64,000 bases of DNA, taken from contig JAIBEZ010000007.1 in NCBI GenBank assembly GCA_019459485.1, positions 1-64,000 on the forward strand, read 5' to 3'. Position numbers and translations under genes: made by a program. This DNA is from Prolixibacteraceae bacterium (lineage in GTDB: Bacteria > Bacteroidota > Bacteroidia > Bacteroidales > Prolixibacteraceae). The notes below the pieces were generated by a model, which searched no databases, was not told the origin of the DNA, and saw only the letters and a list, made by a program, of their open reading frames with translations. Position 1 is the first letter of the stretch; the number at the start of each line of letters is the position of its first letter. This document shows positions 24,956 to 53,805 of this stretch, in pieces.

Positions 24956-24988
24956 AGTGGGAGCGCGACTTCGAGTCGCACCCCCACT
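24956..24988 (+). repeat. AGTGGGAGCGCGACTT hairpin repeat, copy 1
   Basis: An imperfect palindrome, agtgggagcgcgact then cga/taa centre then gtcgcacccccact. Further copies are at 27671-27703, 28491-28523 and 29930-29962, all within the 25-30 kb accretion zone. Confidence 0.8.
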
Positions 24989-25096: not shown

Positions 25097-25297
25097 ATGG
25101 AAGCGATAAATTTCAAAGTGTATCCTCATAACAGGGAACAAATAGAAGCGATTAAAACAGTCTTTAAAGCCTTTAAAATCAAGTTTGAAGTTGAAGAAGA
25201 AAAATCATACAACCCTGAGTTTGTAAAGCGGGTTCTTTTAGCCAAAGAAGAAATCAAACAGGGTAAAGGTGTTAAAATAGCCACCAAAGATTTATGA
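25097..25297 (+). CDS. Antitoxin (DUF2683-like) of a broken YoeB-type pair
   Basis: A 66-residue protein starting INFKVYPHNREQIEAIKTVFKAFKIKFEVEEE, then YNPEFVKRVLLAKEEIKQGKGVKIATKDL. This pattern is seen in DUF2683-like antitoxins that precede RelE/YoeB toxins in Bacteroidota. It overlaps the toxin frame by 4 bp (ATGA). The antitoxin frame and its -7 element are intact even though the toxin has a nonsense codon. Confidence 0.8.
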   Translation: MEAINFKVYPHNREQIEAIKTVFKAFKIKFEVEEEKSYNPEFVKRVLLAKEEIKQGKGVKIATKDL

Positions 25298-25557
25298 AAA
25301 TAATTTATTCGCTGAAAGCTCTTGAGGATATAAGCTACTGGAAAAAAAGTGGCAATAAAGCAGTGTAGGAGAAAATTTCGGCATTGATTAACGATATCGT
25401 AAAGCATCCTTTTACGGGTATAGGCAAGCCGGAAGCATTAAAATATCATCTGTCAGGTTCCTGGTCCCGAAGAATAACACTCACTGACCGACTTGTTTAC
25501 AGCGTAAATATTGAAAATAACAGCATAGAAATTGAAACTGCCAGAGGACACTATTGA
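25294..25557 (+). pseudogene. YoeB/Txe-type toxin gene with a premature TAG
   Basis: The frame reads MKIIYSLKALEDISYWKKSGNKAV, a TAG at 25366-25368, then EKISALINDIVKHPF, GKPEALKYHLSGSWSRRITLTDRLVYSV and a final ETARGHY. KPEALKYHLSGSWSRRI and the terminal HY are YoeB/Txe signatures, including the catalytic Glu/Arg/His-Tyr region. The rest of the frame is intact, so one base change (probably CAG to TAG) seems to have silenced it. Confidence 0.85.
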
Positions 25558-25568
25558 TTCGCAACCAA

Positions 25569-25618
25569 TAAAAAAGCGTTATTACAACCCGGCAATCTGC
25601 CGTCTGCAATAACGCTTT
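25569..25618 (-). terminator. Rho-independent terminator for the minus-strand gene 25737-26423
   Basis: On the minus strand, AAGCGTTATT and AATAACGCTT pair around an inner GACGGCAGATTGCCGGG loop, followed by a run of T. It lies about 120 bp after the stop of the helical-protein gene and about 10 bp after the YoeB remnant, so it may serve both strands. Confidence 0.75.
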
Positions 25619-25736
25619 ACATACCAAATAACTTCAGGCAAAGCTCACCATACAGTTCTTACAGGCTTTATCGAACTACATTTAAAACTTGCCGGAAATT
25701 GAACAATCAGTTCACTCATCCTTTCGGCCCATTGCC

Positions 25737-26423
25737 TTAGTCAGTTGGAGGATCAGGAGGATCAGCAGGTCCCCGTCCGGAATAGTTAACAATGATCCGG
25801 GCATTTTTGTACGCTTTGTAAAAATCGGGCTGGCTTTCTTCGAAAAGACGCATCAGCACATCAATTTCCCCTTTAAGCAGTTTGCTTATGCTTACAATCA
25901 CCTCGCCGATATTTCCGGTTGAGACTTTTGTAACCGAATTGGCCGCTCTCTTCTGAGGAATGGCCAGATTAAAATCAGAGAGCAAAGCATTCAGTTCAGC
26001 GATTTTTTCTTCGCTTACAAAATACTTGTTCAGTTCACCAAGTATTGGACTGGCCAGATTGACCATTAAAATTCCAATATCATACAAAACCGGATCAGGC
26101 GATTGTGTGAGATCTGACTTGCTGTAGTTGGCTTTTGCCTTCAAATCCTTATCATTCACAGAATTGGCATGAGACATTAATGCTGCAGACAAGAAACCAA
26201 TCCGGTTAATCAGGTTCGTTCGAAAATCAGTCTTGGTCTCAGTAAGACCCGAGTTGTCGGCTTCCTGCACCTGTCGGTTTTGCCCCAAAAGCAGAAGACC
26301 ATCCTGTAAGCGCTGATGTGCGAAAACCAGGTCTGCCAACTGGGCAAAAAGCTCAGAATGATTTTTAAGTACCAAATCAACAGAACCAAACATCCGGAGC
26401 TTATTAATTTGCTTTTTTTCCAT
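25737..26423 (-). CDS. Helical cytoplasmic protein, paralogue of 51532-52470, beside a 21-bp tandem array
   Basis: A 228-residue protein from the ATG at 26423; an upstream extension to 26663 is open but unlike the paralogue. It has no signal peptide and is largely helical. It aligns throughout with the N-terminal 220 residues of the protein at 51532: GLTETKTDFRTNLIN, SAALMSHANSVND, the SDL ... DPVLYDIG region, KYFVSEEKIAELNALLSDFN and PDFYKAYKNA match in order. The tail is Pro/Asp-rich (GPADPPDPPTD) instead of carrying the second domain. A 12-unit 21-bp array lies about 350 bp upstream in its own direction. Truncated copies of this family lie at 28240-28490 and 29803-29922. Function unknown. 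Confidence 0.75.
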   Translation of the reverse strand: MEKKQINKLRMFGSVDLVLKNHSELFAQLADLVFAHQRLQDGLLLLGQNRQVQEADNSGLTETKTDFRTNLINRIGFLSAALMSHANSVNDKDLKAKANYSKSDLTQSPDPVLYDIGILMVNLASPILGELNKYFVSEEKIAELNALLSDFNLAIPQKRAANSVTKVSTGNIGEVIVSISKLLKGEIDVLMRLFEESQPDFYKAYKNARIIVNYSGRGPADPPDPPTD

Positions 26424-26769
26424 TTGTAAAGTAATTATTGAGTGTTCAAAAAATAACATATCACCGGTACCATGAATAGTCTGAACTGATAGAATCAGTT
26501 TCATTTTCAATACGCACAATACTGGTCTGAAAGATCCTCCCCGTCTATCTCCCGGCCTGATGAAACGTTGTAAAAACAACGAATCCGAAGAAAATAAAAA
26601 GCGATAAATCAAGAGTATGCGCTGTTTAAATACAGCAGTTTCAATTTCATGCAAAAGGTACAAAATAATTTACACATAATATAGTATACTTTAATTTTGT
26701 TTAATGTTATTTTTATTAATTTTTACAAATAAAATTTAATAAAGGAAGAATTTCAGGCCACTCTCACTT

Positions 26770-27021
26770 GCTATGATCAACTACCGGACTATTATTTTCA
26801 ATTGCCGGTGCATGTTTAGCTACTTACGGTTAACCTTAACCGATCGACGATGCGCATTTATCACCTGCCGACTGACATTACTACAGCTTCGTTATTCATC
26901 TACCCAATGCCGGCTGACAACATTGCACCGCCGATGCACATATAGTAACTGCCGGTGCACATTATTTCACTGACGATGTCCATCTATCAACTGACGATGC
27001 ATATCATTTCGCTGACGACTA
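26770..27021 (-). repeat. 12-unit, 21-bp-period variable tandem array
   Basis: Twelve consecutive units of exactly 21 bp, each differing by several bases. The plus-strand consensus is close to ACATTTATCAACTG followed by CCGATGC. Read in the sense of the gene at 25737-26423, the unit contains GCATCGGCAGTTG. The best conserved parts are TCAACTG and CCGATGC/CCGGTGC. An open frame of 7-residue periodicity across it (26773-26973) is a by-product. It sits 5' of the helical-protein gene. Confidence 0.85.
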
Positions 27022-27160
27022 AATTTCAGGACAAAACACTTACCATTTCCTATTTGCCCGAGGTCATTACAAAAATGCGCATGGGAGGAATGAGTACCCG
27101 GGGGAATTCAAAACCAACTCAATAAAAAGAAGGAAGATTATTGGGTATTGAAGAATAATA

Positions 27161-27236
27161 AAATGCCCTTCCCATTGTGGATTTTGCTTGCAAAAAATGT
27201 TTCAAAAATTCCGCAATTGTTTTTCAGGAAAAGATT
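27161..27236 (+). repeat. 75-bp dispersed repeat, copy 2
   Basis: It closely matches 24794-24868 (aaatgcccttcccattgtgg ... gtttcaaaaattccgcaattg). It lies between the 21-bp array and the next TA remnant. Confidence 0.65.
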
Positions 27237-27281
27237 ATAACGAAAGAAACGCTTAAGAAAAACATTTGAATTGCATCAAAT

Positions 27282-27310
27282 TTTGTAGCTGAAGAATATC
27301 ACTACATTTG
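27282..27310 (+). promoter_or_regulatory. Bacteroidota-type promoter (TTTG-N17-TACATTTG)
   Basis: TTTG at 27282-27285 and TACATTTG at 27303-27310 match the -33 and -7 consensus, 47 bp before the ATG at 27358. It probably drives the small antitoxin gene. Confidence 0.6.
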
Positions 27311-27357
27311 TAGCAGATGAATTTCTGTGATAAAAGTAAATTTCAGAATATCCTATT

Positions 27358-27534
27358 ATGAGAACAAAAGAAACAAAAGAGACTAAAAATCTACAGACTC
27401 CCGGAGAACAACTACCAGATAAAGTATTGGCTAAGCTGGTTAAAGATGCAGAAAAGGGTCCATTTATAACATTTGAAGAGCATCATAAAAAAATGGATAA
27501 ATGGATACAAGAAAACTACAGTAATCTTATCTGA
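27358..27534 (+). CDS. Small antitoxin-like protein left without a complete toxin
   Basis: A 58-residue protein: RTKETKETKNL at the start, then KVLAKLVKDAEKGPFITFEEHHKKMDKWIQENY. The KGPFITFEEHHKKMDKWI segment resembles antitoxins of RelE/ParE pairs in Bacteroidota. A good promoter precedes it. Its stop is immediately followed by the C-terminal piece of a RelE/ParE toxin, so the toxin has lost most of its gene. Confidence 0.6.
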   Translation: MRTKETKETKNLQTPGEQLPDKVLAKLVKDAEKGPFITFEEHHKKMDKWIQENYSNLI

Positions 27535-27602
27535 TCATCTATCGCATTGCTCCTGTTCGAATAGAAGTTCTCCGGGTATTCCATTCGAGTATTTGTACTA
27601 CC
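27534..27602 (+). pseudogene. RelE/ParE toxin, C-terminal remnant
   Basis: The frame reads IIYRIAPVRIEVLRVFHSS, the last beta-strands of RelE/ParE toxins (YRI ... IEVLRVFHS). Everything before it is missing; the antitoxin stop codon abuts the remnant, which points to an internal deletion. Confidence 0.65.
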
Positions 27603-27670
27603 TCCCGGATTCGATCGGTACGAAAAATTAAAGTTTAGCTCCCGCAATTGGCAACAATACAGCTCAGCAA

Positions 27671-27703
27671 AGTGGGAGCGCGACTTTAAGTCGCACCCCC
27701 ACT
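27671..27703 (+). repeat. AGTGGGAGCGCGACTT hairpin repeat, copy 2
   Basis: The same imperfect palindrome as 24956-24988, with a TTTAA centre. It lies just upstream of the hicBA operon. Confidence 0.8.
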
Positions 27704-27777
27704 AATTTAAAGAAAAGGTGTCGTCCAATCATTTTGAGCAAGCAAATTCTTTTGATACCTTTGAAAAAAAGAAAAAG

Positions 27778-28002
27778 ATGGAAAAGATTATTAGCTTACA
27801 TATTGAGAAACTTCCGGAAGGATATTATTTGGCTACTTCTGATGATGTTCAGGGCTTGGTTGCCCAAGGCAGGACAATTGCCGAAACCATTGAAATAGCC
27901 AGAGATATTGCAAAAAAACTGATTGAAGCCAGTGAAGGACAAATTGCAATGTTGCCCGGATTATCAGATAACTTTGATTATCCAATTTTAATAGGAGTTT
28001 AA
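27778..28002 (+). CDS. HicB-family antitoxin
   Basis: A 74-residue protein from the ATG at 27778; the upstream open frame to 27718 runs into the hairpin repeat and is not needed. EKIISLHIEKLPEGYYLATSDDVQGLVAQGRTIAETIEIARDIA is the partial RNase H-like fold of HicB/DUF1902 proteins. It lacks a long C-terminal DNA-binding domain. It is followed after 2 bp by hicA, and the two would form a type II TA pair. Confidence 0.85.
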   Translation: MEKIISLHIEKLPEGYYLATSDDVQGLVAQGRTIAETIEIARDIAKKLIEASEGQIAMLPGLSDNFDYPILIGV

Positions 28003-28004
28003 AA

Positions 28005-28232
28005 ATGGGTCGGCTATCAGGTTTTAGGTATCGCGATATCATTAAAAAACTTAAAAGAGCTGGGTTTGAATTTTACCGGCAAGCTGCAGGCAGCCATGAA
28101 ATTTGGTACAATCCATTAACGAACAAATATACCACCATTCCAAATCATTCAGGCGATATGCCTGAAGGTACACTAAAGGCTATTTTAACCCAGGCGAATA
28201 TTTCAATTTCTGATTTTCTGGAAAAATTGTAA
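28005..28232 (+). CDS. HicA-family mRNA interferase toxin
   Basis: A 75-residue double-stranded-RNA-binding-like protein: SGFRYRDIIKKLKRAGFEFYRQAAGSHEIWYN, then TTIPNHSGDMPEGTLKAILTQANIS. The catalytic His is in GSHEIW. HicA cleaves mRNA, and HicB neutralises it. The 2-bp spacing after the antitoxin gene implies coupling. The antitoxin-first order is the less common arrangement for hicAB. Confidence 0.88.
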   Translation: MGRLSGFRYRDIIKKLKRAGFEFYRQAAGSHEIWYNPLTNKYTTIPNHSGDMPEGTLKAILTQANISISDFLEKL

Positions 28233-28239
28233 TTCCAAC

Positions 28240-28490
28240 CTTTTCTGTTTTCCATTTCTGGTTCCTATGGTATTCGTTGTAAAAATCGGCATGTGCGAAC
28301 TGGTAAGGCATCAGCAAAACATCCATCTCATTCTTTAACAAGGCATCAATCGTATTAAAAGTATCGTTTATATTTCCGGTCGATACTTTTGATGTACCAG
28401 TTGCTACCCGCTTTTGAGGAATAGAAGCTTTAAAATTGGTTAATACAATACCCATTGCCTCGTATTCTGCAGCTATTTCATGTCGTTGCA
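28240..28490 (-). pseudogene. Fragment of the helical-protein family
   Basis: The minus-strand frame reads VLTNFKASIPQKRVATGTSKVSTGNIND then IDALLKNEMDVLL and ADFYNEYHRNQKW. This matches the C-terminal third of the 25737-26423 protein (IPQKRAANSVTKVSTGNIG ... DFYKAYKNA). The first about 130 residues and the tail are missing. The hicA gene abuts its 3' end and a hairpin repeat its 5' end. The 120-bp core (28269-28388) is repeated almost exactly at 29803-29922. Confidence 0.8.
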
Positions 28491-28523
28491 AGTGGGAGCG
28501 CGACTTTAAGTCGCACCCCCACT
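28491..28523 (+). repeat. AGTGGGAGCGCGACTT hairpin repeat, copy 3
   Basis: Identical core to copies 2 and 4. It abuts the broken helical-protein fragment, as copy 4 abuts the second fragment. Confidence 0.85.
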
Positions 28524-28808
28524 GAGATTACGCAATTCGCTGGCGTTTGAATCTTCCGAGTGAGACTTCGAACGCTCAGTCAAACGCCTGTCGAAATTGG
28601 GTAACTGAGCCTGTCGACGTTATAGATTACAGAAAAGCATGAAGTAGTTTTTGAGTCGAAATAAACTATGAACACAGCCTGCCCCGAGTATCTGGGGTTT
28701 TAAAAAAGGAACACGGATAAAATTTATAAAATCAGTGACTATCCGTTTAATCAGTGTCATCTGTGTTCCAAAGGCTGAACTCAAGTGTAATTTACACATC
28801 GGATTTAT

Positions 28809-28816
28809 TATCTTTG
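28809..28816 (+). promoter_or_regulatory. -7 element TATCTTTG before vapBC
   Basis: An exact TAnnTTTG match 47 bp before the ATG at 28864. No clear -33 TTTG. Confidence 0.45.
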
Positions 28817-28863
28817 CTAATGAGTATTGAAAAAGTACAAATAAAAGTTTAATATCTCTAATA

Positions 28864-29121
28864 ATGAATAGAATGGATACAATAACAATAAAAATCGAAG
28901 GCCGTGAAAATGTTTCTTTCTTCATTAGCCTTCTTGAAAAATTCAATTTTATAAAGGAAATAACTGTCAATAAGAAAAAGGCATTGCACAATAAAAGCGT
29001 TGAAGAGGCTCCCATTGAATGGGCCGAGAAGCACCCTTCAATTGATGATTTTACCGGAATCTGGAGTGATCATTCCATTACACTCAATGATATAAGAACC
29101 AAAGGATGGAAAAGGAATTAA
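28864..29121 (+). CDS. VapB-like antitoxin
   Basis: An 85-residue protein: TITIKIEGRENVSFFISLLEKFNFIKEITV, then a C-terminal APIEWAEKHPSIDDFTGIWSD ... LNDIRTKGWKRN. ATG at 28864 or 28873 could be used. The acidic, tryptophan-containing C-terminus is the usual PIN-toxin-binding tail. It overlaps the PIN gene by 16 bp. The module is bracketed by two nearly identical 120-bp direct repeats. Confidence 0.75.
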   Translation: MNRMDTITIKIEGRENVSFFISLLEKFNFIKEITVNKKKALHNKSVEEAPIEWAEKHPSIDDFTGIWSDHSITLNDIRTKGWKRN

Positions 29122-29516
29122 TCCTTTGCGATACAAATATTTTTATTTCCTGGTTTAGGGGTGATTTAGAAACACTTACAAGGATTAAACTCATTGGTCT
29201 CGAAAATATTTTAATTCCATCAGTTACGGTAATGGAATTGTTGCAAGGAACCCGGAACAAGACCGAATCAATGCAATTAAAGAAAAAACTTAAAGCATAT
29301 CACGTCATACATTTCAATGAGATAACGTCGAAGCTCACCATTGAGTTAATTGAACAATTCAGATTAAGTCATGGATTGCTTATACCTGATGCAATAATTG
29401 CTGCAACAGCTATTACATTCAATCTCAAACTTTTCACATACAATCTAAAAGACTTTAAGTTCATTCCAGGTATTCAGTTATACCAATATGATGGTTCAAA
29501 TTATCCTATTGATTGA
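29106..29516 (+). CDS. VapC-like PIN-domain ribonuclease toxin
   Basis: A 136-residue PIN protein with ILCDTNIFISWF (D9), VTVMELLQGTRN (Glu near 44) and LLIPDAIIAATAI (Asp near 95), then the LFTYNLKDFKFIPGI region that normally carries the last acidic residue. VapC enzymes cleave tRNA or rRNA. It is translationally coupled to the antitoxin gene. Confidence 0.88.
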   Translation: MEKELILCDTNIFISWFRGDLETLTRIKLIGLENILIPSVTVMELLQGTRNKTESMQLKKKLKAYHVIHFNEITSKLTIELIEQFRLSHGLLIPDAIIAATAITFNLKLFTYNLKDFKFIPGIQLYQYDGSNYPID

Positions 29517-29723: not shown

Positions 29724-29802
29724 TTGCCAATTAACCAAATGCAATTAATCTGCCTCTGGGTCATCCGTTTTTGCCTTGCGGTTTCCTCCCGTGTCAACAA
29801 TC

Positions 29803-29922
29803 GGTATTCGTTGTAAAAATCGGCATGTGTAAACTGGTAAGGCATCAGCAAAACATCCATCTCATTCTTTAACAAGGCATCAATCGTATTAAAAGTATCG
29901 TTTATATTTCCGGTCGATACTT
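29803..29922 (-). pseudogene. Second, nearly identical fragment of the helical-protein family
   Basis: 120 bp that differ from 28269-28388 at only two positions and encode, on the minus strand, STGNINDTFNTIDALL and ADFYNEYR. It is a direct duplicate that shares the following hairpin repeat (copy 4) after an internal deletion. VapBC lies between the two copies. Confidence 0.85.
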
Positions 29923-29929
29923 CCCAACA

Positions 29930-29962
29930 AGTGGGAGCGCGACTTTAAGTCGCACCCCCACT
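29930..29962 (+). repeat. AGTGGGAGCGCGACTT hairpin repeat, copy 4
   Basis: Same palindrome as copy 3, including the flanking aag and tga bases. Confidence 0.85.
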
Positions 29963-29998: not shown

Positions 29999-30063
29999 GT
30001 GCAGAGCACCGTTAAAATTTGTAGTATATAGGTTACAATACACACAAAAGGTGCAGAGCACCG
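29999..30063 (+). repeat. Two GGTGCAGAGCACCG palindromes
   Basis: The 14-bp near-palindrome occurs at 29999-30012 and 30050-30063 in the leader region of gmd. The 689-bp gap 29517-30205 holds only the repeats and the gene fragment listed here; I see no gene in it. Confidence 0.7.
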
Positions 30064-31379: not shown

Positions 31380-31580
31380 TGTCGAGCGGGCGACAAGGCG
31401 ATTTGGCGACGAGGAGAATGGGAGACGAGGAGACAGGGAGACGAGGAGACGAGGAGAAATAGAGATAAAACATCATTATCACTTCATAATTTCAATAATC
31501 AATTCACCCGAAAAATGGTATCATTAACCCGCACCATCGCCCTGTCGCCTTGTCGCCTTTTCGCCTTTTCGCCCTGTCGA
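31380..31580 (+). repeat. G-rich/C-rich inverted repeat pair without a gene (MITE-like)
   Basis: A G-rich block of gacgaggaga units (31388-31456) and a C-rich cgccttgtcgcc block (31540-31578) face each other. Between them, agagataaaacatcattatcacttcataattt, a cgaaaaatgg segment and cattaaccc match the left and right margins of the four-helix-bundle element at 32800-33330, with that gene missing. Confidence 0.75.
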
Positions 31581-31612: not shown

Positions 31613-32785
31613 ATGAAACACTCTAGTAAGATATATATCGCTGGTCATCGCGGCCTCGTGGGCTCTGCCCTATGGAAAAACCTTCAATCGAAAGGATACA
31701 TCAATCTGATTGGAAGAACACTCGATGAATTAGATCTGATGGACACCAAAGCAGTCAACAGTTTCTTTGAAACGGAAAAGCCTGAATATGTTATTCTCGC
31801 GGCTGCCAAAGTAGGCGGTATTGTTGCCAACAACACCTATCGCGGACAGTTCATCTACGAAAATCTGATGATTCAGAACAACGTAATACATGCAGCTTAC
31901 CTGAACAAAGTTACGAAACTGCTTTTTCTCGGCAGCACCTGCATCTACCCGCGTGACGCGCCGCAACCCATGCCCGAAGATTGTTTACTGACTGGTCCGC
32001 TCGAATACACCAACGAGCCTTATGCAATTGCCAAAATCGCCGGAATAAAACTGTGCGAAAGCTACAACCTGCAATACGGCACCAATTTCATTTCGGTGAT
32101 GCCTACCAACCTTTACGGACCAAATGACAATTTCGATCTTGAAAAATCGCATGTATTGCCAGCCATGGTTCGAAAAATGCACCTGGGCAAATGTCTGGAA
32201 GAAAACAACTGGGATGCCATTCGCGAAGATCTGAACAAACGCCCAATCGAAGGAATCAATGGAGACGAGGCGACAGGGAGAAAAGGAGACGGGGCGAATG
32301 GTAATGAAGAAATACTCAATATTCTTGAAAAATATGGAATTCGCCTCACCAATTCGCCCACTCGCCCACTCGCCCACTCGCCCAGTCTCCCACTCGCCCA
32401 GTCGGTTTCGGTCGAGCTATGGGGAACCGGTGCTCCTTTCCGCGAGTTTCTGTGGAGCGAAGAAATGGCCGATGCCTGCGTCTTCCTGATGGAGAACGTT
32501 GACTTTCAGGATGCAATTCGTGAAAATTCGTCTTCAATTCGTGAAATTCGTAATTCACACATCAACATCGGCACCGGCATTGAAATTACCATTCGTGATC
32601 TGGCCAATCTCATCAAAGAAAAAGTCGGATTCAGGGGTGAACTGGTATTCAACACCTCAAAACCCGATGGCACCATGCGCAAACTGACCGATCCGTCCAA
32701 ACTACATTCACTTGGCTGGCACCATCAGATCGAAATTGATGAAGGAATTAGCCGGTTATACGACTGGTATCTTAATCAGAAATAA
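31613..32785 (+). CDS. fcl: GDP-L-fucose synthase (with repeat insertions)
   Basis: A 390-residue SDR: IYIAGHRGLVGSALWKNLQ, the active-site LFLGSTCIYPRDAPQP, and YAIAKIAGIKLCESYN (Tyr/Lys). It epimerises and reduces GDP-4-keto-6-deoxymannose to GDP-L-fucose. Bacteroidota members are usually about 355-360 residues. The extra length comes from a G-rich block (residues about 217-230), a C-rich Pro/Ser block (about 245-264, SPTRPLAHSP) and an attcgtgaaattcgt block (about 301-315), all in frame. All catalytic residues are kept, so activity is plausible. Confidence 0.93.
   Translation: MKHSSKIYIAGHRGLVGSALWKNLQSKGYINLIGRTLDELDLMDTKAVNSFFETEKPEYVILAAAKVGGIVANNTYRGQFIYENLMIQNNVIHAAYLNKVTKLLFLGSTCIYPRDAPQPMPEDCLLTGPLEYTNEPYAIAKIAGIKLCESYNLQYGTNFISVMPTNLYGPNDNFDLEKSHVLPAMVRKMHLGKCLEENNWDAIREDLNKRPIEGINGDEATGRKGDGANGNEEILNILEKYGIRLTNSPTRPLAHSPSLPLAQSVSVELWGTGAPFREFLWSEEMADACVFLMENVDFQDAIRENSSSIREIRNSHINIGTGIEITIRDLANLIKEKVGFRGELVFNTSKPDGTMRKLTDPSKLHSLGWHHQIEIDEGISRLYDWYLNQK
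32263..32403 (+). repeat. In-frame inverted G-rich and C-rich repeat blocks in fcl
   Basis: 32263-32303 is ggagacgaggcgac-type and 32346-32403 is ctcgcccactcgccc-type, complementary in composition. Between them the normal fcl sequence NEEILNILEKYGI is kept. The blocks match the margins of the elements at 31380 and 32800. Confidence 0.85.
32514..32557 (+). repeat. In-frame AATTCGTGAAA repeat in fcl
   Basis: Four attcgt words in 44 bp are translated as AIRENSSSIREIRNS before the conserved HINIGTG motif. Confidence 0.75.
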
Positions 32786-32804: not shown

Positions 32805-33330
32805 ACTGGGAGACAGAGAGATTGGGCGACTTGGAGACGGGGCGAAAGAGAGATAAAACATCAATATCACTTCATAATTTTCAACCATCATGGGAAATAT
32901 TAAGACTCACAAAGATCTTCAGGTTTATCAGGCAGCGTTTAAGGCAGCAACACAAATACACCAAATTTCGATGTTCTTTCCTCCTGAGGAAAAATACTCA
33001 TTGACAGATCAGGTCAGGAGAAGTTCACGATCTGTTTGTGCAAACATCGGGGAAGCATTCAGAAAAAGAAGATATCCTAAATCATTCATTGTCAAACTAT
33101 CTGATTCGGAAGCAGAAGCAGCAGAAACACAGATATGGCTGGATTTTGCATTGGAATTCGGCTATATTGACAATGAAAAACACGCGTTACTCTACGACAA
33201 ATACGATCATATCCTTTCCCAACTAGTCATCATGATCAATTCTCCGGAAAAATGGTGCATTTAACCCGGTCGCCCTTTCTCCCCATCGCCTTGTCGCCCT
33301 TTCGCCTTGTCGCCTTGTCGCCCCGTCGCA
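32805..33330 (+). mobile_element. Candidate mobile element: four-helix-bundle gene flanked by inverted G/C-rich repeats
   Basis: The left margin (32805-32852) carries gggagacagagag / gacggggcgaaag and the right margin (33268-33327) the complementary cgccctttcg / ccttgtcgcc words. Between them lies the S23-type gene. The inner margins match the gene-less element at 31380-31580. No transposase is visible, so any mobility would act in trans. Confidence 0.5.
32890..33264 (+). CDS. Four-helix-bundle protein (S23/IVP family)
   Basis: A 124-residue protein: TNRTHKDL-type start (IKTHKDLQVYQAAFKAA), DQVRRSSRSVCANIGEAFRKRR, then KLSDSEAEAAETQIWLDFALEFGYI. This is the TIGR02436/S23 family first known from 23S rRNA intervening sequences and related to the bAvd accessory protein of diversity-generating retroelements. 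Here it lies alone between gene-sized inverted repeats in the gmd-fcl-fkp fucose set. No reverse transcriptase or rRNA is nearby. Molecular function unknown. Confidence 0.88.
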   Translation: MGNIKTHKDLQVYQAAFKAATQIHQISMFFPPEEKYSLTDQVRRSSRSVCANIGEAFRKRRYPKSFIVKLSDSEAEAAETQIWLDFALEFGYIDNEKHALLYDKYDHILSQLVIMINSPEKWCI

Positions 33331-50464: not shown

Positions 50465-50988
50465 TCCGCCACAAACTTGAATTTGGGAAAGTTCGTTTCA
50501 GGGCTTTGGAACCCGACGACATTGACCTGTTGTACGATTGGGAAAACGATGCAAAAATCTGGGAAGTGAGCAACACTTATGAGCCATTCTCAAAATACAT
50601 TCTGGCAAAATACATCAAGGATTCGCAGCGCGACATATACGAAAGCAAACAGGTACGCATGATTATTGAAACGCTGGAAGGAAACGCTGTCGGCGCCATC
50701 GACCTGTTCGATTTTGATCCATTCCATTTCAGGGCAGGCGTTGGTATTCTGATTCATGATGAAAAAGACCGCAAAATGGGTTATGCCAACGATGCGCTTC
50801 AACTGCTTTGCAGCTATGCCGCCAATTACCTCCGTTTACACCAATTGTTTGCCAACATTACCGCAGACAACCTGGCAAGTATTCAATTGTTCAAAAACAA
50901 CGGATTTGAACTTTCCGGTACAAAAAAAGACTGGCGCCGAACTTTGGATGGCTGGAAAACGGAACTCTTTTTTCAGAAGATATTGTAA
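50461..50988 (+). CDS. GNAT acetyltransferase (RimJ/RimL type)
   Basis: A 175-residue protein with VRFRALEPDDIDLLYDWENDAKIWEVS at the start, AVGAIDLFDFDP, and the acetyl-CoA-binding KDRKMGYANDALQLLCSYA, followed by FANITADNLASIQLFKNNGFEL. This is the acetyltransf_3 subgroup that modifies protein N-termini or small amines. It overlaps the GT2 fusion by 4 bp, so a sugar-amine or lipid-linked substrate is possible. Confidence 0.9.
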   Translation: MIRHKLEFGKVRFRALEPDDIDLLYDWENDAKIWEVSNTYEPFSKYILAKYIKDSQRDIYESKQVRMIIETLEGNAVGAIDLFDFDPFHFRAGVGILIHDEKDRKMGYANDALQLLCSYAANYLRLHQLFANITADNLASIQLFKNNGFELSGTKKDWRRTLDGWKTELFFQKIL

Positions 50989-50997
50989 CTGTTCAAT

Positions 50998-51291
50998 CAC
51001 CAGACAATAGTCCCGGAACAGCAAGCAAGTGTGTCGGAATATCAAACAATTGCGTCCGAGCATCAAGCAAGTGTGTCGGAATATCAAGCAATTGCGTCCG
51101 AGCATCAAACATTCGCGTCGGAACATCAAGCAATCATGATAAATTATCAAACATTTGCTTCGGTTCATCAAACAATTGTGTCGGACCATTAAGCAATAAC
51201 CCCGCAGCATCAAACAATTCATTCTGATCGTTAATCAGTAACATCTCAACATTGATAACTTGTATCTGAGCGGCAATCACCCGATTCACAA
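50998..51291 (+). repeat. About 14-unit, 21-bp-period variable tandem array
   Basis: Consecutive 21-bp units with consensus near CATCAAGCAATTG followed by CGTCGGAA. The first nine are clearest and the last four or five are degenerate. In the sense of the downstream gene the unit reads GCATCAAGCAATTG, close to GCATCGGCAGTTG of the array at 26770-27021. The array begins 10 bp after the GNAT stop and ends about 240 bp before the 51532 gene. The remaining 240 bp are AT-rich with a possible TTTG ... TAAATTAG promoter near 51455-51482. A 7-residue-periodic minus-strand frame is a by-product. Confidence 0.85.
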
Positions 51292-51531
51292 CAACGTTTA
51301 ATCCAAACTGATTTCAGCTCATTGGCTTTGGTCAGGTAATTAATATTACCGAAAATAAGAATAGTTAAACTGCTGACAGTAAAATGAATGTACAATCGTC
51401 CAACAAAACAAAAAATAAATAAAAGATTACGCAAAAAGAACATGAAATTATTTTTTTGTTTAGTTGATATTCCGTAAATTAGCTCGGGTTGTTTATTCTT
51501 ATCCATGCAATTATGAAATCAATTTGTTTTT

Positions 51532-52470
51532 ATGACCCAAAATCAGGAAAATAAAATTAATTCACTTGAAACTCTTATTTTGTTTTGCGAGGAGAAAGCC
51601 GACACTACTGCAAATCTTCCGGAATTTGATCAAAATCTGGCGGAATTAAAAAGTACTGTAGCTGAAATAAAATTGACAGGCGAAAAACAAAAAAAAGGTT
51701 TGACCGGAATAGCTGCTACTAAAAAACAGCTACGAACCAAATTAATTGACCTGGGCTCTGACAGCGCCCGGAAATTAACCTCTTATGCCACATTAAAAGA
51801 GCAATTCACCTTGCTTGGCACCATCGATTTTACAATTACTGATTTCAATCGTTTTTCAGACCTTGAACTCAGAGACAATTGCCAGATCGTTTACAACGCA
51901 GCCCAGGAAATCCTCGAAGATCTGGGCAGTTATTTCATTAACGAGGAAACGCAGGCCATTTTGCAGGGAGCAATTAACGATTTTAACAGTTCGATGAGTG
52001 CCCCGCGCCTCGGAGCGACTGCAAAAAGTCAGCTGACCAAGCAACTGGTTGTGTTATTCAAACGTGCTGAAGTTGCTGAAACCCGTATGAATGCTTCGGT
52101 TGAACTGATCAGAAATTCGAATGCTGATTTTTACAACGGATACCAGGCAGCGGGCAAAGTAATTAAACGCGGAAAGGCAAGTTTATCGGTTAGAGGAGTG
52201 GTTACAGAAGCTCAAACGAGCAACCCGCTTAAGGGGGTAACCGTGACTTTTATTCCGGTAAACGGAACCGCAAAACTGATACAGGCATCGGGCAATGGTG
52301 CCGGTTTGGTTAAGAAAACTGCGGCCAAAGGTGGTTTTAATATTAAATCGCTCGAAGGCGGAACTTACCAGGTACTGTTTCAGAAACCTGGATATGCCGA
52401 ATCAACCCAAGAAGTGAATGTAAACAATGGCGAACTATGTGTTGTGAACGCAACACTGGAAAAGAAATAA
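51532..52470 (+). CDS. Helical protein with C-terminal carboxypeptidase-regulatory-like domain, beside a 21-bp array
   Basis: 312 residues with no signal peptide. Residues 1-220 are helical and homologous over their length to the protein at 25737-26423: GLTGIAATKKQLRTKLID, the SDLELRDN region, SYFINEETQAILQGAINDFN and NADFYNGYQAAGKVIK align in order. Residues about 228-312 form a beta-sandwich like CarboxypepD_reg (LSVRGVVTEAQTSNPLKGVTVTFIP ... GGFNIKSLEGGTYQVLFQKPGY). This domain is usually periplasmic, so its presence without a signal peptide is odd. A terminator follows. Function unknown. Confidence 0.8.
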   Translation: MTQNQENKINSLETLILFCEEKADTTANLPEFDQNLAELKSTVAEIKLTGEKQKKGLTGIAATKKQLRTKLIDLGSDSARKLTSYATLKEQFTLLGTIDFTITDFNRFSDLELRDNCQIVYNAAQEILEDLGSYFINEETQAILQGAINDFNSSMSAPRLGATAKSQLTKQLVVLFKRAEVAETRMNASVELIRNSNADFYNGYQAAGKVIKRGKASLSVRGVVTEAQTSNPLKGVTVTFIPVNGTAKLIQASGNGAGLVKKTAAKGGFNIKSLEGGTYQVLFQKPGYAESTQEVNVNNGELCVVNATLEKK

Positions 52471-52533: not shown

Positions 52534-53805
52534 ATGAACAAACCATACAAAAACCAAATGAAAAAAAAGGACAAGGGCAAAAATGCACAGCAACAAAAGC
52601 AGGAAGAAATTCATCAGAAGAATTGCTACCTGAAACGGATAAAAGCAATGATGGGAATCATTGGAGATGAATCGGCTTTTGATCTTTTGGGAACGAAAGG
52701 GGTTGAATCTTTGTATTTTTTTCGGTTGCGTCCCGTGAAACTAATAAGCGCCGAAAATTCAGATTTAAAGGCTACAAAACAAGACTTAATTGCGATGAAC
52801 AAAGTCCTAAACTGGATGCTTCGAGATTCATTGGTTAATATTGGTTCGGATAAAAAACAAATAAGCCTGTACGATTATTTTTGTTACCCCGAAACTATAC
52901 TATTATACTGGCGAAATGTTGATAAAGATAACTGCCTAAACCCGGAAGCTTTTAAAAATAAATTTCCAGTCTTCAATGATTTTGATTCTATAAGACTTGA
53001 AGCCTATCGAAAAAAAGAAGAATCTATGCAATTAATTTCATTGTTCTTTACTCAGCTAGGACGTTTCACCATTCGGTTTGAGTTAGAAGCTTCAAAACTT
53101 GATACATCTTCATATCACCCAAAAGCCTTCTATAACAATTACCTCGTTTACTTTGAGAAACCGGAAACCGAATTATTTGAAATTGATGGACACAAACGCA
53201 CTATTTTCAGGATAAACATATACAATGAAAATAAGGTTACAGGAATAACTATAAAACCCGAACAGCTTGGAATAAATGGGCTATTAAAAGATCTTCCCCT
53301 AAAAGTTTACATACAAAAACATGCGCTCGACCGGATAAATGAGCGGATTGGGGATCATTTTACCGATTTAAATTATTCTGAAGTTATTGATATGGTCTTG
53401 AAGCATCAGACTTTTCCGACGGATGATGGTGGCTACTTGTTTCCATATACCTACATGAACAAAAGGCTGGGATACCTGAAAGCAAATATCTTTGGTGACC
53501 GATTGATTTTTCGTACTTTTTTATTTCTCACCAATAACGGTACTCCTGAAGGAAATAAACTGGCTAAATTATTGGGTATTCAGAAAGCTGATAAGAAATA
53601 CCTGGGCATTGATAACCTAAAAACGTTTATCAATTCGGATATCGAATCGAACGAAAATCTAAAACGGATTTTTTGTCAGACTGGGTGCGGTGAATTGTTT
53701 GAGTTGATAAAAATTATGAGGATAAATCCATCTCCAACCATTCATTGCGCCGATTTTTTGGAAAAATACCTTGGATTAAAGCGGGAAGAACAGTTAAATA
53801 AGTAG
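52534..53805 (+). CDS. Hypothetical protein with a C-terminal HxxxRxxER motif
   Basis: Up to 423 residues. ATG at 52534 sits in the terminator T-tract, so 52558 or MMGIIGDESAF (52648) may be the real start. I do not recognise a named family. A notable segment near residue 265 is YIQKHALDRINERIGDHFTDL. Its His-Arg-Glu-Arg pattern resembles RelE-like/DUF4258-like nucleases, and it is followed by LGYLKANIFGDRLIFRTFLFLTN. The rest is mixed alpha/beta and soluble. Toxin or nuclease activity is speculation from one motif. Confidence 0.6.
   Translation: MNKPYKNQMKKKDKGKNAQQQKQEEIHQKNCYLKRIKAMMGIIGDESAFDLLGTKGVESLYFFRLRPVKLISAENSDLKATKQDLIAMNKVLNWMLRDSLVNIGSDKKQISLYDYFCYPETILLYWRNVDKDNCLNPEAFKNKFPVFNDFDSIRLEAYRKKEESMQLISLFFTQLGRFTIRFELEASKLDTSSYHPKAFYNNYLVYFEKPETELFEIDGHKRTIFRINIYNENKVTGITIKPEQLGINGLLKDLPLKVYIQKHALDRINERIGDHFTDLNYSEVIDMVLKHQTFPTDDGGYLFPYTYMNKRLGYLKANIFGDRLIFRTFLFLTNNGTPEGNKLAKLLGIQKADKKYLGIDNLKTFINSDIESNENLKRIFCQTGCGELFELIKIMRINPSPTIHCADFLEKYLGLKREEQLNK

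Follow-up and report, generated by a model that had tools for sequence, protein, structure and literature searches.

Across the phylum Bacteroidota, a family of helical proteins is usually accompanied by non-coding tandem arrays with a conserved period of 21 bp and an unconserved sequence. This combination is unusual, and it suggests an undescribed kind of partnership between a protein and repeat DNA. No description of such a pairing was found among the matches listed by open-licence PubMed Central for DUF6261, DUF4469, and Bacteroidetes or Prolixibacteraceae repeats. The pairing is documented here starting from two loci, A and B, in a contiguous 64,000-nucleotide stretch from a Prolixibacteraceae bacterium, referred to as the window (Table 1).

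Table 1. Arrays, genes, and gene fragments of loci A and B, with positions in the window
Feature	Position	Strand	Description	Basis
Array B	50975..51331	+	At most 17 imperfect 21-bp units with degraded ends; 42-/63-bp higher order	Tandem Repeats Finder, lag scan, extension, BLAST
Promoter-like TTG-N16-TAAATTAG	51456..51482	+	Putative; between array B and gene B	Read from sequence; inference
Gene B	51532..52470	+	312 aa; all-helical from residue 1 to ~210; transthyretin-like domain at 219-310	ORF, Pfam, AlphaFold2
Gene A	25737..26423	-	228 aa; paralogue of B that lacks the C-terminal domain	Translation, homology, model
Array A	26769..27048	-	21/42-bp units upstream of gene A	Tandem Repeats Finder (26917-27018), extension, position
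Third family member, 3' fragment	28267..28458	-	Within 1.5 kb, no array other than array A	
Fourth family member, 3' fragment	29801..29938	-	No adjoining array found	

When the window was scanned for self-matches at lags 10-69, array B accounted for the top three (lags 42, 63, and 21), and array A was the fourth-best and the next locus after it. The best core of array B reported by Tandem Repeats Finder spans 51014-51197 (period 21, 8.8 copies, 67% matches, 0% indels, score 137), and a second call covers 51022-51134 (period 42, 2.7 copies, 90%). The limits of array B in Table 1 were set by extending it while the lag identity stayed high, and from these extended limits its 3' end lies 200 bp before the ATG of gene B. 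Array A ends 345 bp upstream of the ATG of gene A. The original prediction had described about 14 back-to-back 21-bp units upstream of gene B, which are visible at 50998-51292, and had correctly assigned an array of its own to the paralogue. The motif GCATC-n-GCA(A/G)TTG, which had been proposed as common to the units of A and B, turned out to be at chance level: the motif similarity of the two arrays (0.26) lay close to the median (0.28) and was equalled or exceeded in 222 of 351 array pairs. Array B had no second copy in the genome, where other matches covered only 20-30 bp with E values of 0.19 or worse.

The paralogy of genes A and B was likewise borne out (24% identity, E 6e-10). The C-terminal domain of B was identified by Pfam as PF13620 (E 8.9e-11), and the AlphaFold2 models reached a pLDDT of 83 with a pTM of 0.41 for B and a pLDDT of 82 with a pTM of 0.49 for A. 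The genome that contains the window holds six full-length family members. For the helical domain, no consistent Pfam family emerged from 24 scanned members (four single-member matches), NCBIfam and PHROGs gave weak or C-terminal matches only, and PADLOC gave no defence-family match for five proteins. A Foldseek search of the PDB returned no solved structure matching the helical domain at E < 0.001; the fold matches of the whole model mapped to the transthyretin-like domain, and solved relatives detected by sequence (E 0.02-1) were coiled coils for the most part. The charge of the protein cores is near neutral (mean pI 7.2, range 5.0-9.7). An origin from a phage, plasmid, or virus was rejected, as B had no match in phages or in 72,556 plasmid records, and neither B nor A had one in viral contigs. 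Gene B is preceded by an acetyltransferase gene (Pfam) and followed by a gene for a 423-aa protein (52534-53805) that has no Pfam or PADLOC match.

The generality of the pairing was assessed with family members that had been gathered by protein similarity alone, the array search coming afterwards. We scored an array as present when the identity at lag 21, 42, or 63 was at least 0.60 within an 84-bp window. The first sample, consisting of the same genome and 60 relatives, yielded 55 matches, distributed over 24 of the 61 genomes, from which 15 partial matches were left out, so that the count refers to 40 near-full-length homologues from 20 genomes. An array was located within 800 bp upstream in 23 of these 40 and downstream in four, while 13 had neither; in the genome of the window, five of the six members had an upstream and one a downstream array. 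Another genome (G028) has four members, of which an intact one follows an upstream array, one that is interrupted by an in-frame stop has its array downstream, and two have none. The upstream arrays ended 21-605 bp before the start of the protein match, and array presence clustered on the protein tree. As a control, we took 1,111,140 bases from the genome of the window, in 60 stretches, and examined the 698 open frames that were 150 aa or longer and had 400 bp or more of upstream sequence. Four of the 698 had an upstream array, one of them belonging to a third protein family, and six of 676 had a downstream array (Fisher p 6e-29 for homologues versus controls, the homologues not being independent of each other).

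The result was replicated with 395 genomes from across the phylum, of which 17, including the genome of the window, contained matches. There were 39 matches, 30 of them with locus sequence; three came from the genome of the window, and 26 of the remaining 27, which extended far enough upstream, were counted. An upstream array was present at 20 of these 26 loci, or at 17 of 20 when the six partial matches are set apart, and two of the six misses showed weak 20/40-bp lags (0.54 and 0.58). Nine loci came from a scan of named genomes, among them a Tangfeifania MAG and the cultured species Prolixibacter denitrificans DSM 27267 (array-bearing locus L172); an array lay upstream in seven, four of which had already been counted. 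In agreement with the original prediction, array and protein therefore form a recurrent pair: most homologues carry an array, and arrays are rare beside control genes.

Wider and finer scans of the array-less homologues detected only lag 42 at 0.62, located 846 bp upstream of one gene (G021a). At two loci (G043 and G050), period 21 was the best but near background, and at another (L169), a degraded 21-bp array was recognizable by eye only. Arrays also occur apart from family genes. The array of one member (C68) has a relative in the same genome (C43; L095 4871-5146; 72% identity over 261 bp) that lies in a 20-kb stretch free of family genes and may be a site on which the C68 protein acts in trans. 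Additional orphan 21-bp arrays are present in the genome.

Distant homologues have the period in common and not the array sequence. In 540 comparisons between arrays of the relatives and arrays of the phylum sample, the median similarity was 0.29, and 0.2% reached at least 0.6. Among 27 arrays (351 pairs), motif similarity tracked protein identity (Mantel r 0.71, p 0.0002) and dropped to background below about 50% protein identity, a result that co-evolution and co-inheritance of a linked array would give equally well. Four related loci whose proteins are 57-79% identical have matching conserved columns with the core CAT(T/C)(T/C)GGA, and their six pairwise profile correlations were 0.52-0.78 versus 0.07 +/- 0.23 in the null. 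The agreement in column conservation was poor between G015a and its four relatives (0.04-0.34), -0.05 between G013a and G003b despite 58% identity, and 0.08 on average among C60, G013b, and G020a. Unit steps were in exact register in 242 of 243 cases, a number subject to bias, since the arrays had been trimmed at the points of falling lag identity. Overdispersed columns were detected in 24 of 27 arrays, and this test was set aside as it is confounded by unit duplication.

A fixed-period array is also found upstream of genes of a second family, DUF6261 (PF19775; proteins of ~250 aa), whose first case was a 41-bp array before such a gene inside one of the control stretches. In 22 loci from 13 of 31 genomes, 41 bp was the best upstream lag at 19, with 17 reaching at least 0.60, and none of the 20 loci with downstream sequence had a downstream array. 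Of 28 further loci, drawn from additional genomes of the order at one per genome out of many more matches, 23 reached at least 0.60 (lag 41 in 15, lag 42 in seven, and lag 43 in one); two of the seven period-42 arrays are situated about 1 kb upstream. A 41-bp upstream array was found in one of the 698 control frames, and the stretches concerned include the array-bearing DUF6261 gene of L077. DUF6261 loci thus resemble those of the family of A and B (family 1) in having a protein gene with a fixed-period upstream array, and they differ in the period of 41-43 bp, in units that are often palindromic (10 of 17 arrays versus none of 27 in family 1, for which palindromic units were rejected), and in the proteins, which have no detectable homology to family 1 (hhalign probability 0.9%); neither B nor A matched the DUF6261 profile in Pfam.

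Two smaller groups were noted in addition. Both DUF4469 genes of the genome of the window have a 22/44-bp array directly downstream (L175, 1859 onward; L176, 1288 onward), and the one that was scanned has a Pfam HU-DNA_bdg domain; two matches below the curated cut-off were left out, and the sole DUF4469 gene checked outside this genome (G049) had no array. A third family of ~234-aa proteins that are helical by eye and have no Pfam name (C54, C17, and C110; L116, L117, and L118) has a 21-bp upstream array in two of three members at the 0.60 threshold, the third member reaching 0.58. Its hhalign probability against family 1 is 33.7%, and it may be a distant branch of that family.

We tentatively favor, with a confidence that falls just short of even, the view that the array provides clustered DNA sites cognate to the encoded protein, which assembles there at a fixed helical spacing. 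Several copies of the protein would bind the direct repeats along one face of the helix at a spacing of two turns (21 bp), and the resulting nucleoprotein complex would probably control the gene and may mark or organize the locus. The geometry of the assembly would set the period, which would thus be fixed for each protein family, while the recognition sequence would diverge together with each protein and be homogenized within the array by unit turnover. An assembly of fixed geometry on DNA would explain why the period is shared by the members of a family and changes from one family to the next. DUF6261 would have arrived at another solution, in which the site is often palindromic, presumably for a dimer, and recurs every 41-43 bp or about four turns; direct asymmetric units would suit one subunit per unit, and palindromic units a dimer. 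The earlier idea that 21 bp reflects two helical turns is compatible with the fixed period and with the 41-43 bp of DUF6261, and phasing of the AA/TT type at lags 9-12 gave no clear signal of DNA curvature (mean z -0.11 to 0.26). Counting for this view are the frequent upstream arrays of the homologues compared with the controls, the separate periods kept by the two families, the motif that follows protein identity, the conserved columns common to four related loci, the 22-bp arrays next to the DUF4469 genes, and the promoter-like box described below. We infer the binding of the protein to the array, its assembly there, and any cellular role from these comparisons. The near-neutral pI, the lack of a matching solved fold, and the low pTM of the models weigh against binding to the array, and the 13 of 40 homologues without an array at the threshold, the poor column agreement of other related pairs, and the orphan arrays count against the cognate-site model.

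The closest described behavior is that of ParR on parC in type II partition (ParMRC) systems. ParR is a ribbon-helix-helix protein, and ParM is the actin-like motor encoded in the same operon. As in ParR/parC, direct repeats lie next to, and usually upstream of, the gene whose protein is presumed to bind them. In the cited part of one account (PMC9426499), ParR binds solely the repeats of its cognate family, repeat sequence and spacing vary by family, and the parC repeats of pSK41 are 20 bp. Membership in ParMRC is nevertheless not supported: the helical domain has no ribbon-helix-helix match (Pfam; no fold match at E 0.001), neither neighbor of gene B matches an actin-like family (Pfam, locus B only), B is absent from the plasmid records searched, unlike plasmid-borne ParMRC, and the units of the arrays, unlike those of parC, number up to 23.

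As the repeats are upstream of the gene at most loci, the array could instead be transcribed into repeat RNA that the protein binds or processes, by analogy with type III toxin-antitoxin loci (ToxIN, CptIN, and TenpIN). We consider this rather unlikely, though it is the alternative with most in its favor. The type III loci also have tandem repeats before one protein gene, and their antitoxin repeats likewise differ greatly between loci in sequence and length, according to the cited section of PMC4627078. The signal for a structured RNA was weak. On the gene strand, five of 27 arrays folded better than their column permutations (p <=0.03), where about 0.8 were expected, which favors the RNA reading; two of the five come from one protein clade. 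The remaining 22 arrays had no such signal in this pseudoknot-free folding, and the mean z amounted to only -0.43 for the gene strand and -0.13 for the opposite strand. The distance between array and gene varies, and the four of 40 arrays behind the gene are easier to reconcile with a linked site than with a leader of the mRNA. In the DUF6261 palindromes, G-T and A-C mismatches were alike (10 versus 7), as expected for DNA sites and without a clear strand asymmetry. Rfam had no match anywhere in the window, and Pfam, NCBIfam, and PADLOC, libraries that may not hold all three families, gave no match to ToxN, CptN, or TenpN.

It is also unlikely that the array serves as a site for another factor, with the helical gene merely being the target and its protein never contacting the array. 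In agreement with such an arrangement, the helical domain has no recognizable DNA-binding fold, the proteins are near neutral, and orphan 21-bp arrays stand beside other genes. Against it, the period is family-specific in two families across an order or a phylum, and the motif tracks protein identity, though co-inheritance would do likewise.

A neutral minisatellite, that is, slippage-prone DNA that lies near family genes by accident, is very improbable. The genome does hold other tandem arrays, and the unit number is unequal between the close loci C64 and G007, yet 4 of 698 controls versus 23 of 40 homologues had an upstream array, and one period persists throughout the phylum with unrelated sequences while another period goes with another family. 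A described minisatellite of the phylum is BrickBuilt of Porphyromonas gingivalis, a minisatellite/MITE which, in the cited part of PMC4596501, consists of intergenic 23-bp tandem repeats with gain and loss of units and occurs as one sequence at 19 places in a genome beside various genes. Our arrays are likewise intergenic tandem repeats in a Bacteroidota genome; they differ in that array B is single-copy, that the array of C68 has one relative (C43) among the stretches searched, and that the arrays accompany a protein family.

We see hardly any room for a TIGR-like guide-RNA array of repeats and variable spacers with a new effector. As in TIGR-Tas, where repeats are conserved within and variable across loci and the array lies upstream or downstream of one gene (cited part of PMC12045711), a tandem array with locus-specific sequence adjoins a helical protein, 42-bp double units exist at several loci, and in some arrays a conserved part can be told from a variable one. 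Unlike in TIGR-Tas, no Nop domain was found by Pfam or by Foldseek against the PDB, and arrays of near-identical units, thus having no spacers, exist in G713 (23 units, lag identity 0.99) and G581b (18 units, 0.98). A heptad-repeat peptide encoded by the array (21 bp being seven codons) has a next to negligible probability, as the frames that were open through the 27 arrays, despite an ATG-started minus-strand frame covering much of array B, numbered 12 versus 11.3 +/- 3.1 after column permutation, and 41-bp DUF6261 arrays are unable to keep a frame.

A wider and distinctly less certain proposal is that Bacteroidota have a general class of satellite-DNA/protein pairs in which the family dictates only the period (21, 22, or 41-43 bp) and the sequence is free to change with each protein. 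This possible class would comprise two families with no detectable homology and perhaps HU-like proteins, would give a single genome several pairs of different specificity, and would be a bacterial counterpart of the fast-evolving centromeric satellites. The prediction is an assembly of proteins that acts as a gauge of DNA length and whose recognition sequence re-evolves freely. Binding would provide several orthogonal DNA-protein pairs in one genome, ready for studies of how specificity co-evolves, and would assign unannotated families their first role; if the proteins do not bind, the fixed period still calls for another explanation.

The interval between array and gene may contain a promoter. 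Besides the promoter-like element of gene B, TTG-N20-TAAATTAG occurs about 80 bp before the ATG in G013a and G003b, which are the closest homologues of B. A scan with a pattern based on what we take to be the promoter consensus matched six of 40 loci from two clades, at -79 to -82 in the interval between array and gene, versus 1.6 +/- 1.3 (largest 6) in null sequences. Gene B itself is not among these matches, the spacer being shorter there.

Several other elements were noted. The region 25097-29516 contains paralogue A and two 3' family fragments amid small genes with the look of toxin-antitoxin genes, which we take by eye to be HicB/HicA-like (~27781-28232) and PIN-like (29106-29516). A 31-bp palindrome-like element, GTGGGAGCGCGACTTNNAGTCGCACCCCCAC, is present in four mismatch-free copies (24957-24987, 27672-27702, 28492-28522, and 29931-29961) within some 5 kb that include paralogue A and both fragments. 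Palindromic GGTGCAGAGCACC / GGTGCGCTGCACC elements are located upstream of the arrays in L002, L003, and L005, and one is also found near a family fragment at 29999-30062 of the window. Arrays of 8 bp (GACGAGGA, TCGCCCTG, and similar) follow at 31408-31457, 31537-31579, 32354-32404, and 33265-33329. Finally, 19-bp arrays at 1256-1306 of the window and at L056 11982-12084 both have GACAACC inside a similar unit and may represent a different, possibly dispersed minisatellite.
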